From Lobosporangium transversale (lineage: Eukaryota; Mortierellomycota; Mortierellomycetes; Mortierellales; Mortierellaceae), in the NCBI RefSeq assembly GCF_002105155.1, contig NW_019029083.1:1-35435 (forward strand): a DNA stretch of 35,435 bases, written 5' to 3'. Position 1 is the stretch's first letter, and each line of letters opens with the position of its first letter. The notes under the pieces are model-generated. The model saw only the letters and a program-made list of their open reading frames with translations. It searched no databases and was not told the origin of the DNA. Made by a program: the position numbers and the translations under genes. Shown here in pieces: positions 14,552 through 34,636 of this stretch.

Positions 14552-15241
14552 CTTGAAGAATATCAATAAAGCCTTTTCTTTCAATGATTCCTATCATCAT
14601 CAGCTTTCCACAATCTTCATTAACCCCAATGTGCCTGGTACTTGGTACTCGGTACCTAACATCTAAATAGTGGTGCTTTCCACCATCTCCAACGTCATTG
14701 TACAGACATAGACACGCAGATAACACAGTAGATGTGAGTGTACAGCCAGACAAGCAGACAACTTGACAACTTGTGTGAGCTATCCCAAAACTCTTTTGCG
14801 GATCATGGCCAAGGAGACAAGAGTAAACTTTATGGAATAAGACAAAGACAAGCTCCGATTAATATTTGGTCTAGAGTGCCTATAACTAGCCATTAGAGGC
14901 ACCGTGTAAAACCAAAGACCTGTTGCTCTCGCTATATTGTATCCGTCTTCCTCAAAGGAGACGTGAAAAGGACTAGCAAAATGCCGATCAGAATCCTTGC
15001 TATGTTATGATCCAAGTCGAGTGAGATCCCACGCTTTATTTAAGAAGGCTTTTGATGATCCAAAGCACCAAGAGCAAGTCGTTTTATTCCCATGTAGACA
15101 TCCATTGATCAACTCAAAAGATTCCACCTCAATCCCAATGCTATGTCTCTGTCAAACACTCCCTCTCTTCAAATATCATAAGATCAGTCCTGGAGAGCGA
15201 TCTGTTTAAAAGCTCTATAAGGGATTCTCAAAAGATCGTTA
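14552..15241 (+). repeat. Left arm of a 690-bp inverted repeat
   Basis: Pairs in reverse complement with 16676-17365. Read by eye, the arms are the same length and differ at about two positions (near 14559 against 17359, and near 14998 against 16919), about 99.7% identity. Similarity fades over the next about 12 bases outside the arms and ends abruptly inside, at CGTTA|AATG. Open frames on both strands of the arm (for example 14997-15209) have mirror copies in the other arm but no recognised domain. Confidence 0.95.
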
Positions 15242-15604
15242 AATGTTACCAACGAATCATTGAGTGATAGGCGCTATTTATTTTTTCTATTTGCATTTCG
15301 GTGCTGCTTTTTTGTAACCCACTGAATGTATATATCATGTTTAACTGTTACTTAATACAGACGCTACACACTATTATTCCTTTTATCTCTTTTTTACAGC
15401 TCTCACAAAGGCACAGCATTGAATTTATTAGTGTGCTTCACGATGTTTATTTTTGGTCATAATAATGTCTTTATTATCGAAGTAGAGGTTCAAATAATTT
15501 TATACAGTTAGCAATTTCATGAGTGGTATGCTTGCTTCTTTGATGTCTGATGACAGGGGTAGACTCTGCGTCCGAGAGACTGGGATGTGCTCTGCTTTTT
15601 TGCC
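15242..15604. other. Left part of the inverted-repeat spacer
   Basis: Normal-complexity AT-rich sequence downstream of the small repeat-protein gene (which reads toward it). Probably holds that gene's 3' UTR. I see no other feature. Confidence 0.5.
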
Positions 15605-15872
15605 CTAAAATGGGATTAGGCCACCTTCACTTCGTGGAATGGCTACTTTTTCAGAGCCCTTGAAGGGGATCCCTGGCTTCTTTCTCAGAGCTCTTGAAGG
15701 GGATTGGCCCACCTTCACCTGGCGGGATGTCTACTTTCTCGGGACCTTTGAAGGGGATTGGCCCACCTTCACCTGGCGGGATATCTACTCTCTCGGAGCT
15801 CTTGAAGGGGATTGGCCCACCTTCACCTGGCGGGATGTCTACTTTCTCGGGGCCTTTAAAGAGGATTGGGCT
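15605..15872. repeat. 54-bp coding minisatellite
   Basis: About four to five units of 54 bp inside exon 2 of the repeat-protein gene. Units are nearly identical at the DNA level across GGCGGGATGTCTACTTTCTC and neighbouring bases. The last unit toward 15605 is diverged and one unit is shortened, which shifts the reading frame. Confidence 0.9.
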
Positions 15873-16040
15873 AGCTATAAGATTAAATATGGAAAATGAA
15901 GTAGTAGTGAGTCAAATGCGTACTTGAACAGTACAGATACCAACAAAGACAGGTGTGAAGATCCTACCGTCTGCCCTAGGGGTGACCACAACTAAGGCGG
16001 CAGCGACTACGGAAATGACAGCGGTGATTAAGAGCTTCAT
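15605..16040 (-). pseudogene. Secreted tandem-repeat protein gene, 2 exons, apparently frameshifted near its end
   Basis: Not recognised as a known family. Minus-strand exon 1 (16040-15941) starts MKLLITAVISVVAAALVVV, a clear signal peptide with a likely cut after TPRA. A 66-nt intron follows (GTATCT donor, TGACTCAC branch-like site, TTATAG acceptor). Exon 2 (from 15874) encodes tandem 18-residue units of the form PIPFKGPEKVDIPPGEGG. Units alternate between FKGPEK and FKSSE(R/K), so the larger period is 36 residues. The present frame stops at TGA 15653-15651 (107 residues), but the repeat resumes one frame over as IPFKGSEKVAIPRSEGG and ends at TAG 15607-15605, so a frame-shifting deletion in the fourth unit is likely. 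There are no dibasic Kex2 sites between units. It could be a secreted wall, signalling or effector protein; a functional truncated allele is also possible. Promoter elements are intact. Confidence 0.65.
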
Positions 16041-16128
16041 GACGTATAATGGATAATGGAGATTCGAGAATCTTGTTAAGTGTTGTAAGGTATTTGAAGA
16101 AAAGAGAAGAAAGACGTGAGATGTTCTG

Positions 16129-16136
16129 CTTTTATA
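16129..16136 (-). promoter_or_regulatory. TATA box of the repeat-protein gene
   Basis: Minus-strand TATAAAAG, 89 nt upstream of the start codon at 16040. The leader between them is rich in CT and TTC, as in many fungal 5' leaders. An A tract (plus, 16143-16168) lies just upstream. Confidence 0.6.
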
Positions 16137-16137
16137 T

Positions 16138-16140
<3 letters not shown>

Positions 16141-16675: not shown

Positions 16676-17365
16676 TAACGATCTTTTGAGAATCCCTTAT
16701 AGAGCTTTTAAACAGATCGCTCTCCAGGACTGATCTTATGATATTTGAAGAGAGGGAGTGTTTGACAGAGACATAGCATTGGGATTGAGGTGGAATCTTT
16801 TGAGTTGATCAATGGATGTCTACATGGGAATAAAACGACTTGCTCTTGGTGCTTTGGATCATCAAAAGCCTTCTTAAATAAAGCGTGGGATCTCACTCGA
16901 CTTGGATCATAACATAGCGAGGATTCTGATCGGCATTTTGCTAGTCCTTTTCACGTCTCCTTTGAGGAAGACGGATACAATATAGCGAGAGCAACAGGTC
17001 TTTGGTTTTACACGGTGCCTCTAATGGCTAGTTATAGGCACTCTAGACCAAATATTAATCGGAGCTTGTCTTTGTCTTATTCCATAAAGTTTACTCTTGT
17101 CTCCTTGGCCATGATCCGCAAAAGAGTTTTGGGATAGCTCACACAAGTTGTCAAGTTGTCTGCTTGTCTGGCTGTACACTCACATCTACTGTGTTATCTG
17201 CGTGTCTATGTCTGTACAATGACGTTGGAGATGGTGGAAAGCACCACTATTTAGATGTTAGGTACCGAGTACCAAGTACCAGGCACATTGGGGTTAATGA
17301 AGATTGTGGAAAGCTGATGATGATAGGAATCATTGAAAGAAAAGGCTTTATTGATATTTTTCAAG
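16676..17365 (-). repeat. Right arm of the 690-bp inverted repeat
   Basis: Reverse complement of 14552-15241 with about two visible differences. The inner end is TAACGATCTTTTGAG at 16676; the outer end is near TTTTTCAAG at 17365, beyond which alignment with the left flank decays through scattered G-to-A and T-to-C differences. Confidence 0.95.
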
Positions 17366-32677: not shown

Positions 32678-34636
32678 ATGGCTTTCCCTGCTGATATCGA
32701 TGGTCACCTCCCACATAGTGATCTGAGTGATTTGTATAATGATCTAGGTGATACCGATCTAACATTTCTAAGAACACCCCGAAGATGCCGACAATCGCCC
32801 TCCAAACTCAATGTCACTCCCAATAGATCCCCCACACGATATCATTGGATCACTCCACCTAAGAACAGATCCAAAGGGTCCCCTCTAAAACAGTACTCCG
32901 AGGAGCTTCCCAGTGCTGCCGATCCAAATCCGTTCCTGTCAAATGGACAAGCTGCAGAGCTTCAGCAGGACATTGATGAGTTTCCTCGCAAAAAAGCGAC
33001 CATTACACATAACGAATACGTTATGATGGCTCGGACATTCAAGGCTATTACTGAGGGGCCACTGGAAGTTCGACAGTGGTTTATGCAGACACCAGACAGA
33101 GCGAACACCTTGTCGATTTTAATGGGTGTAGGAAGAGATGCATGTTTGACAGGAATTAAATTTGCCACCACTGGTGTCCTCGAGTTCAAAGACCGTGGAA
33201 AAGTTGGGCATGAGAGAACTAGGATGCCCAAAAAAAGAAATTGATCAGGATGTAGCCTCGAAAATTATGGCGGTCATAGTAGATTCAAACAAGCGTGGTG
33301 CACCTAATTCAGCAGCTATAGTTGCGAACCAACTCAAGGATGACTTTGGGATCGACAGATCAGCAAGGTCAATTACTCGTGATCTTCGCAGAAGGGTTTA
33401 TATTGGGGTAAAGGAATTCGACACTACTTCTTGCATGACTCCAAGGAAAATGTCGCATTCCGGACAACATACCTCAAGCGTTGCCTCAGTAATCTAAAAC
33501 TTGTGGATGACAATTGGGTTCCTAAAATGTCGGAAGTGTTCTTAGATAGGTCTTACTGTCACATCGATCATGCTGCAGCAAGACGTTGGGTGAAAAATAG
33601 TGGTGGTGTCGCAAACGATGCGGGAAGAAAGCCAATAGGTTATCTTTGCGGCATTCGTTGTTTACTACGATGAACTCAACAAAAAAGTTGAGGGCAAACT
33701 CGTGAAAGATAGTGTATATGTTTGGCCACCCAAAGGGCCAAAGCCATAGTCGAGGAAAGGCCAAGAACAGGAGGCAGAGTTGTAGAACGATGTGCTTGAA
33801 GGGATCAAGAGTGCAGGGGTTGTAGCAACAGGTCACGACTATCATGGGAATTTCAACGCCAATTTCTTTAAGCGACTTTGTGAGTACCTCAATGAGATGG
33901 GATTGGAACTTGCCAAATCTATCTTGATGGTGCTTCGTATCATTTCCATAAGAAAAACAAAGCACCAACCAAGAGTGAGACCGCGACAACTATCAAAGAG
34001 TGGCTCACCAACAAGGGCATTGCTATTCCAACCAAGGAAAATGGAAAAGCAGTGAATAAAGACGATCTTATGGAGTTGATCAAAGCCCTTCCTGACGAGT
34101 CGTATTTCTCTATTAGTAAAATCGCTCAGGAGAACAGTGGTCATGAAATTCTCAAGACTCCACCATATCACTGCGAGCTTCAGCCTATCGAGAAAATTTG
34201 GGCCGTCGTTAAAAACATTATTGTATCGAGAGCAAGGACAATGACAGCCCTTTTGTTGAAGAAAAAGTTACTCAGTTTATTTTCTCAAACCCCGGATAGA
34301 ATATTTTATTCTGTATGGAGAAAGTCAGTGAAAATTGGTATGAAATACTACAACGAGAGGAGTCGCGTGCAGGAACTGTTGGACGAGTTGGAAGAGAGGC
34401 ATTATCAAGAGACCAGTGATGGACAGGGGATAATTGAGGACATTGGTGAGGAGATTAGAGTCGACAGCAGTGAGTGGGACATAGAGATCGCTAAAATAGT
34501 AAACCGAGAGCAAGCTGAGCCTATTATCATGGGATCTGAGATAGAGGACCTTGCTCCAGATACTGGAAACGTGTTTGGTTTAGTAGGGTCTGAGGATGAG
34601 CCTCTTATCAATCGAAAGAGCTTTCGTAAAAATTAA
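32678..34636 (+). pseudogene. IS630/Tc1-mariner-type transposase, multiply broken
   Basis: DDE-type cut-and-paste transposase relic. The N-terminal part (32678 to about 33205) has MMARTFKAITEGPLEVRQWF and ATTGVLEFKDRGK. The frame then shifts near 33200 (GMRELGCPKKEIDQDVASKI, the helix-turn-helix part), again near 33393 (GLYWGKGIRHYFLH), again near 33640 (VIFAAFVVYYDELNKK) and again near 33920. Two in-frame TAGs lie at 33747 and 33783. The catalytic triad is traceable: Asp in EVFLDRSYCHIDH, Asp in LDGASYHF, and Glu in PPYHCELQPIEKIW (downstream of 34052), as in IS630/Tc1 elements. The last frame, 33923-34636, is long and intact, with an acidic C-terminal tail. At least four frame breaks plus two stops rule out a functional protein. 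Confidence 0.85.

Follow-up and report, generated by a model that had tools for sequence, protein, structure and literature searches.

The minus strand of contig C8 of the Mortierellaceae fungus Lobosporangium transversale raises the question of whether a small secreted repeat protein is encoded there, and, if so, to what kind of gene it belongs. The window, i.e. the whole stretch of DNA that was analysed, is the entire contig (35,435 bases). Between 16138 and 15651 of its minus strand lie a TATA box, a CT-rich leader, a signal-peptide exon, a phase-1 intron and an array of 18-residue tandem units, described here as the C8 gene, the focal gene of this work. A previous sequence-only reading had proposed these elements together with an acceptor at 15875, and, apart from the 5' end of the intron and the end of the protein, they are present as it described them; its remark that no single frame reveals the gene is likewise borne out, since no frame is open across it. 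The features of the locus are:

14552..15241, plus strand: inverted arm on the 3' side of the gene, resembling paralogue 3' flanks in equal orientation
15242..15604, minus strand: 3' region, with AATAAA at 15475, 15451 and 15429
15605..15650, minus strand: last part of the array, not in the frame of exon 2
15651..15874, minus strand: predicted exon 2, the mature region; 18-residue units (three DIPPGEGG), unit 4 frameshifted, ending in ...SSEKEARDPLQGL and a stop
15875..15967, minus strand: predicted phase-1 intron of 93 nt, GTAGGA...TTATAG, from the family alignment; acceptor at 15875
15968..16040, minus strand: predicted exon 1 of 73 nt, signal peptide MKLLITAVISVVAAALVVVTPRAD and the first base of the next Ala codon
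16041..16127, minus strand: CT-rich 5' leader, with the block TCAARYACCTTACAACACT common to six aligned sequences
16128..16138, minus strand: TATA box (AATATAAAAGC), from paralogue alignment and sequence
16676..17365, minus strand: inverted arm on the 5' side of the gene, read as an inverted copy; 688 of 690 positions identical to the 3'-side arm

The predicted protein begins at an ATG at 16040 with the signal MKLLITAVISVVAAALVVV, whose hydrophobic core reaches a 13-residue Kyte-Doolittle mean of 3.07 at its highest and precedes an Ala-Asp-Ala site. Tandem Repeats Finder places a 54-nt repeat at 15694-15869 (3.3 copies, score 294). Three whole units are followed by a fourth that is 20 nt short, with a period of 34 at 15640-15704, and translation stops at 15651 after the frame changes in this unit, giving a product of 98 aa including the signal peptide. 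The array down to 15605, which the earlier reading had taken as the C-terminus, is therefore not a single reading frame, and that end of its protein is probably wrong. With its frameshift, the C8 copy may be decaying.

The intron required closer attention, as its 5' end had been placed at 15940 to give a length of 66 nt. Donors and acceptors of all models were placed by hand from an alignment of the gene family described below. Within this alignment, the 20 bases from 15967 (GTAGGATCTTCACACCTGTC) match the start of the paralogue introns, e.g. GTAAGATCTTTACACCTGTC in C35_393, and the bases downstream of the C8 gene's GTAGGA continue to track the paralogue intron. Both candidate donors preserve phase. 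A donor at 15967 yields an exon 1 of 73 nt, the length also found in six further models (61 or 64 nt in the other seven), whereas 15940 yields 100 nt, a length found in no other model. The hexamer at the position equivalent to 15967 is GTAAGA or GTAAGG in 12 of the 13 other models and GTAGAG in one. The C8 donor is thus probably 15967 rather than 15940: the acceptor of the sequence-only reading stands, its 66-nt intron probably does not, and the residues GRIFTPVFV that it had included are probably intronic, since the paralogue comparison puts the donor upstream of them. Donor 15940 is disfavoured by the family alignment, though possible for the C8 copy. Two introns of a UDP-glucose dehydrogenase gene in the window (near 1477 and 2220, minus strand) apparently start with GTAAGT and GTAAGA; GTAAG therefore seems to be the common form, with the GTAGGA of the C8 gene weaker. 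We also considered the intron as part of a longer coding exon and rejected this, because the read-through frames stop at varied places and so give no sign of selection on the intron as coding sequence.

To place the gene among its relatives, DNA searches and patterns were applied to the whole genome (42.7 Mb, 127 contigs). The leader and signal exon of the C8 gene have five other matches at 73-76% identity (E 1.8e-23 to 6.5e-18), so the gene is more than a chance arrangement, and the TATA-like element occupies the equivalent place in the five paralogues aligned with it. Within the same genome, a signal-exon pattern gave 14 matches and an intron pattern 11, each against none for the reversed control; the leader pattern gave 69 against 49, so it says little alone and most of its matches are due to chance. 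For 17 of 30 leader-pattern loci, the fetched sequence was then scored with a model, and seven members reached at least 60.9 bits; L034 (16.7 bits) and L032 (no score) were left out of the family count.

In all, about 20 loci in this one genome share the leader, signal exon and intron. These are the C8 gene, four loci on C35 (337, 389, 393 and 616 kb), two on C97 (4 and 117 kb), one on C3 (22 kb), one each on C126, C85 and C70, and a group of nine on C62 (1002-1027 kb). The true number could be 19, as C3_22 may be an assembly duplicate of C97_4 (99.8% identical over 3.2 kb). Full models were built for 14 of the 20. The other six comprise four changed or damaged copies and two C62 copies known from the intron pattern only. 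Among the four, C126 has a changed donor and an exon 2 that by eye is like the one in C35_616, C62_1026 has a shortened exon 1, and the signal frame is broken in two more C62 copies. In every one of the 14 models, exon 1 measures 61, 64 or 73 nt, the intron is in phase 1 and exon 2 stays open downstream of the junction. The codon split by the intron lies at the predicted cleavage site and encodes Ala in nine models, and Asp followed by Ala in five, suggesting that the signal peptide comes from exon 1 and the mature product from exon 2. The proposal of a spliced, secreted tandem-repeat protein, which was to fall if there were neither a transcript or splice junction nor a homologue of equal exon structure in related genomes, is thereby supported on the second half of this condition by homologues that share this structure, as paralogues within the gene's own genome.

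The mature exons of the 14 models fall into approximately eight types, of which five are tandem arrays; the others are a four-cysteine peptide, a short linear peptide and six-cysteine peptides. The arrays are built from 18-residue PIPFKGPEKVDIPPGEGG units in the C8 gene, HIKIPPVAESADSI units in C35_337 and C35_389, GPHLVDDSVKEA-like units in C35_393, DSVEEASIGCRLTNSCPANVKEA units in C97_4 and C3_22, and 46 copies of YTPRQE in the C85 member (L044, at 160 kb on the minus strand), where a 407-aa precursor has its copies grouped by KDTGAEA-like spacers. C70 encodes the four-cysteine peptide and C35_616 a linear peptide of 25 residues. Six-cysteine peptides with the spacing 3-6-8-6-3, counted for C62_1002 and C97_116, are assigned to four C62 genes (L049-L052) and C97_116. 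The latter is grouped with the C62 peptides by its equal cysteine spacing: an own-genome protein search with the C62 six-cysteine peptide matched only the four C62 genes and not C97_116, and the exon 2 pair did not beat shuffled sequences. The same C62 peptide has no PDB match at E <= 1. The symmetric spacing (L049-L052, L015) could pin a helical hairpin. Separately, the stretches CSGFHCPR and CRLTNSCP (L047, L004) resemble vasopressin-like peptides in their ring-plus-proline layout, perhaps by chance.

The regions of the gene were compared among nine representatives of the 14 models (near-identical copies dropped) by local alignment against 100 mononucleotide shuffles, with exon 2 entered minus its first 14 nt. 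Pairs scoring above all 100 shuffles numbered 36 of 36 for the leader, 36 of 36 for exon 1, 27 of 36 for the intron and 5 of 36 for exon 2. The five exon 2 pairs (C8-C85, C8-C70, C35_337-C35_393, C35_393-C97_4 and C85-C70) suggest that some mature exons are distantly related, such that the eight types are not all independent, although repeats can inflate exon 2 alignment scores. For the C8 gene itself, the leader and exon 1 exceed the shuffles in all eight pairs and the intron in six (the exceptions being C70 and C97_116), while exon 2 fails to do so in six of eight, beating them with C85 and C70; the failure was narrow against C35_393 (matched by 2 of 100 shuffles) and C35_616 (3 of 100). The match of the C8 gene to C35_389, C35_393 and C35_337 ends 11 nt into exon 2. 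Its match to C97_4 and C3, 1.26 kb long at 58%, extends across exon 2; for the C97_4 exon 2, 80 of 218 aligned columns are alike. The genes thus have a common module, a common splice phase in the models and no detectable similarity between most mature exons. These data suggest that paralogues with a common signal exon mostly carry unrelated mature regions, a point that the sequence-only reading lacked.

Searches with the products themselves are consistent with the earlier remark that the family was not a recognised one. The C8 protein has no Pfam match at E <= 1, and none of the 242 word-sharing candidates from the protein database matches it at E <= 1. Pfam was run on seven of the 14 model proteins, of which five, C8 included, had no match at E <= 1 and C35_389 had two weak ones; the three matches of C97_4 (best oligo_HPY, E 6.2e-5, below the cut-off, with no single stretch passing) were taken as a repeat artefact. 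Of the 7999 database candidates with the most words in common with the C85 YTPRQE protein, none matched it at E <= 0.01. As a coverage control, the UDP-glucose dehydrogenase of the window matches Entomortierella, Gamsiella, Podila and Linnemannia at 91-94% among the best 120 of 8000 (94% to Entomortierella and Gamsiella among the matches listed), and the Mortierellaceae are therefore represented in this database, where short or unannotated genes could still be missing and no Lobosporangium entry was among the matches listed. A literature search, judged from bibliographic entries, returned no report of such a family in an early-diverging fungus.

Pairs of copies were then compared segment by segment. 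C62_1002 and C62_1008, a pair selected after looking at the data, have no differences across 433 positions of leader (110), exon 1 (73) and 3' flank (250), 5 of 129 in the intron, and 13 of 110 plus a 3-nt indel in exon 2 (Fisher p 1.3e-7 for exon 2 versus all the rest, 0.026 versus the intron). The residue is altered in seven of the nine changed codons, with all six cysteines kept; dN is 0.140 and dS 0.097, values that do not constitute a test of positive selection. For C62_1002 and C62_1023, exon 2 has just 4 differences in 110 positions, the intron 2 in 129 and the 3' flank 3 in 250; C62_1008 and C62_1018 do not differ in any segment. On C35, the leader, exon 1 and intron of C35_337 and C35_389 are identical at 295 of 295 positions, with exons 2 of 680 versus 242 nt that contain 15 versus 4 HI(K/R)IPP motifs. 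Between -111 and -1300, the inverted upstream regions of the divergent genes C35_389 and C35_393 (L002, L043) agree in 1,189 of 1,191 columns. Their leaders match at 93 of 109 positions, their first exons at 58 of 64 and their introns at 104 of 120, a difference of 9-15%, and there is hardly any alignment between the mature exons (105 of 227 aligned columns alike, 300 gap columns). The homogenised piece in this pair thus appears to be the upstream part and not the signal module, perhaps by conversion of that part. Exon 1 itself has a median dN/dS of 0.64, the ratio falling under 1 for 28 of the 35 pairs (out of 36) that could be used and for 5 of the 8 pairs involving the C8 gene, and its variable columns are distributed 13/9/12 over the codon positions. 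This points to weak purifying selection on exon 1, so the unusual feature of the family would be its fast mature exon and not an exceptionally constrained signal exon.

The C8 gene also lies between 690-bp inverted arms (two mismatches, 99.7% identical) that were absent from the sequence-only reading. The 3'-side arm resembles the 3' flanks of the C62, C97_4, C3 and C35_337 genes in equal direction; the 5'-side arm resembles those of the C62 and C35_337 genes in the opposite direction, and is therefore read as an inverted copy of the C8 gene's own 3' flank. The C62 match passes the inner end of this arm by 55 nt, so the copy may once have been longer. A whole-genome search with the arm, blind to diverged copies, found no third copy. 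A transposon bearing the C8 gene between terminal inverted repeats was considered and rejected on these grounds: with no further match genome-wide and a likeness to family 3' flanks, the arms are better read as a local inverted duplication. Promoter switching by inversion between the arms was also rejected, since the promoter lies in the spacer and would move along with any inversion. Inverted duplication is seen as well at C35_389/393 and in the C62 cluster. The C62 copies are arranged as inverted pairs recurring approximately 16 kb apart. Elsewhere in the window, an open frame at 33896-34636 (plus strand) resembles by eye part of an IS630/Tc1-type transposase. Inverted repeats may not be special to the family: L. 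transversale is also reported to carry a transposon whose terminal inverted repeats measure 1,362 bp (PMC8533490).

Several explanations of this family were weighed, not all of them exclusive of its structural description as a common 5' module joined to varying mature exons. The main rival to a role in antagonism or defence is that the products are wall or surface proteins: the arrays would be low-complexity wall, spore-coat or matrix polypeptides whose exon 2 varies through relaxed constraint and slippage. Five array types among 14 models and a copy number of 15 versus 4 in one pair fit this, and secreted tandem-repeat proteins are common in fungi, with repeats reported in 6.2% of signal-peptide proteins (PMC7329392). 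However, the same module carries six-cysteine peptides (3-6-8-6-3, on two contigs) and a linear peptide of 25 residues, neither of them a product of slippage, and the changes among C62 copies retain all six cysteines; we consider this explanation unlikely, if by no means negligible. We give the same weight to the C8 gene being a pseudogene or by-product without product, carried in a duplicated inverted-repeat region. The frameshift in unit 4, the inverted arms and the damaged relatives all speak for it, yet the copy retains an intact signal exon, an intact splice phase and three full units, and even the truncated frame yields a 98-aa product with a signal peptide.

Far less probable is a Kex2-processed repeat protein (KEP) or a ustiloxin-type RiPP precursor releasing one peptide per unit. 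The signal peptide, the regular short units and the 46 YTPRQE copies of the C85 member are reminiscent of such precursors, and the three DIPPGEGG copies of the C8 protein reach the threshold of at least three repeats given for the KEP pipeline of PMC6339444. However, KR, RR, KK and RK are absent from the mature region of C8 and of 10 others of the 14 models (C35_393 has three such sites, C70 one and C97_116 two), so release of units by Kex2, a defining KEP step, is not expected for the C8 array. UstYa (PF11807, DUF3328) has no match in the genome, a result that carries no information as the control was likewise without a match in all 14 control genomes. We regard an autocrine signal or pheromone precursor as the least probable of these. 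Repeat precursors of pheromones have the same general layout (PMC6339444), but the C8 protein lacks dibasic sites, and divergence of products between paralogues would be odd for a self-recognised signal.

The explanation that we favour, and judge reasonably probable as a whole, is that a Mortierellaceae fungus carries a superfamily of hypervariable secreted peptides, whose genes combine a conserved 5' module with a mature exon that varies strongly among members; that the C8 gene is protein-coding, spliced and encodes a small secreted repeat peptide belongs to this same overall judgement. The module consists of the TATA box, leader, one-exon signal peptide and phase-1 intron at the cleavage site, with further upstream sequence in most members. 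The structural part of this superfamily reading we consider very probable from the comparisons above. Under it, the genes would be expressed and spliced, and co-expressed through their common promoter. The module would drive ER targeting, signal peptidase would cut after the Ala at the junction, and the repeat polypeptide would thereby be released and secreted. Repeat gain and loss, recombination and clustered amino-acid changes would make the mature exon diversify faster than its surroundings, and the flanks would be kept alike by duplication and gene conversion. As a variant, which we hold to be somewhat less likely still than the surface-protein or pseudogene explanations, the module may be a socket for expression and secretion, with unrelated mature exons swapped by recombination via the intron and inverted duplications homogenising parts of the locus.

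The functional part of the superfamily reading is more tentative, at somewhat less than even odds: of the possible functions, the most likely is that the peptides are aimed at other organisms, in antagonism or defence, with bacteria, competitors, grazers or endobacteria as possible targets. Outward-facing, fast-changing peptides with a constant signal are argued in PMC4409773, for citrus SCAmpPs and conotoxins, to be typical of gene families that mediate contact between organisms, and antagonism or defence is favoured by analogy with such families. The fungal effector suggested by the sequence-only reading is one candidate role for the C8 product.

Known systems offer partial parallels, which for conotoxins and the citrus SCAmpP genes extend to gene design only. 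Cyst-nematode HYP effectors are secreted proteins in which conserved ends flank variable tandem repeats, from a nematode. Conotoxins within one superfamily usually have a common cysteine frame; they are animal venom genes, whereas here repeats and cysteine peptides sit on one signal module. Their superfamilies resemble this family in a conserved signal region, UTRs and intron combined with a hypervariable mature toxin (PMC6266589; hypervariability per PMC4409773). SCAmpP genes comprise two short exons around an intron of approximately 100 bp, with a hypervariable product region; one pair shows no difference from -2.5 kb, through promoter, exon 1 and intron, to a point 6 bp beyond the intron, yet encodes different products (PMC4409773). 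The two-exon layout, constant 5' part and hypervariable product are thus common to SCAmpPs and the C8 family; in the same account, however, SCAmpPs are plant genes, 100-150 in number, with precursors of approximately 50 residues and cyclic products of 5-10 residues, compared to the repeat arrays and cysteine peptides of a fungus. Fungal KEPs (PMC6339444, PMC7329392) resemble the C8 gene in having a signal peptide and tandem units, but its array has no dibasic cleavage sites between units.

Alone, the C8 gene would be an ordinary secreted repeat protein, and it is more interesting as a member of a superfamily within one genome. Such genes are easily overlooked, combining a short exon 1, an intron and a repeat exon with products for which homology searches fail. 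The constant 5' module provides a search handle, which found about 20 loci here and could retrieve the variable secreted peptides of other Mortierellaceae, making it testable how the family changes its product while keeping promoter and signal. The socket variant, if true, would represent a modular peptide-diversifying system in an early-diverging fungus. If the superfamily reading is confirmed, it would extend the design of conserved signal and hypervariable product to an early-diverging fungus.
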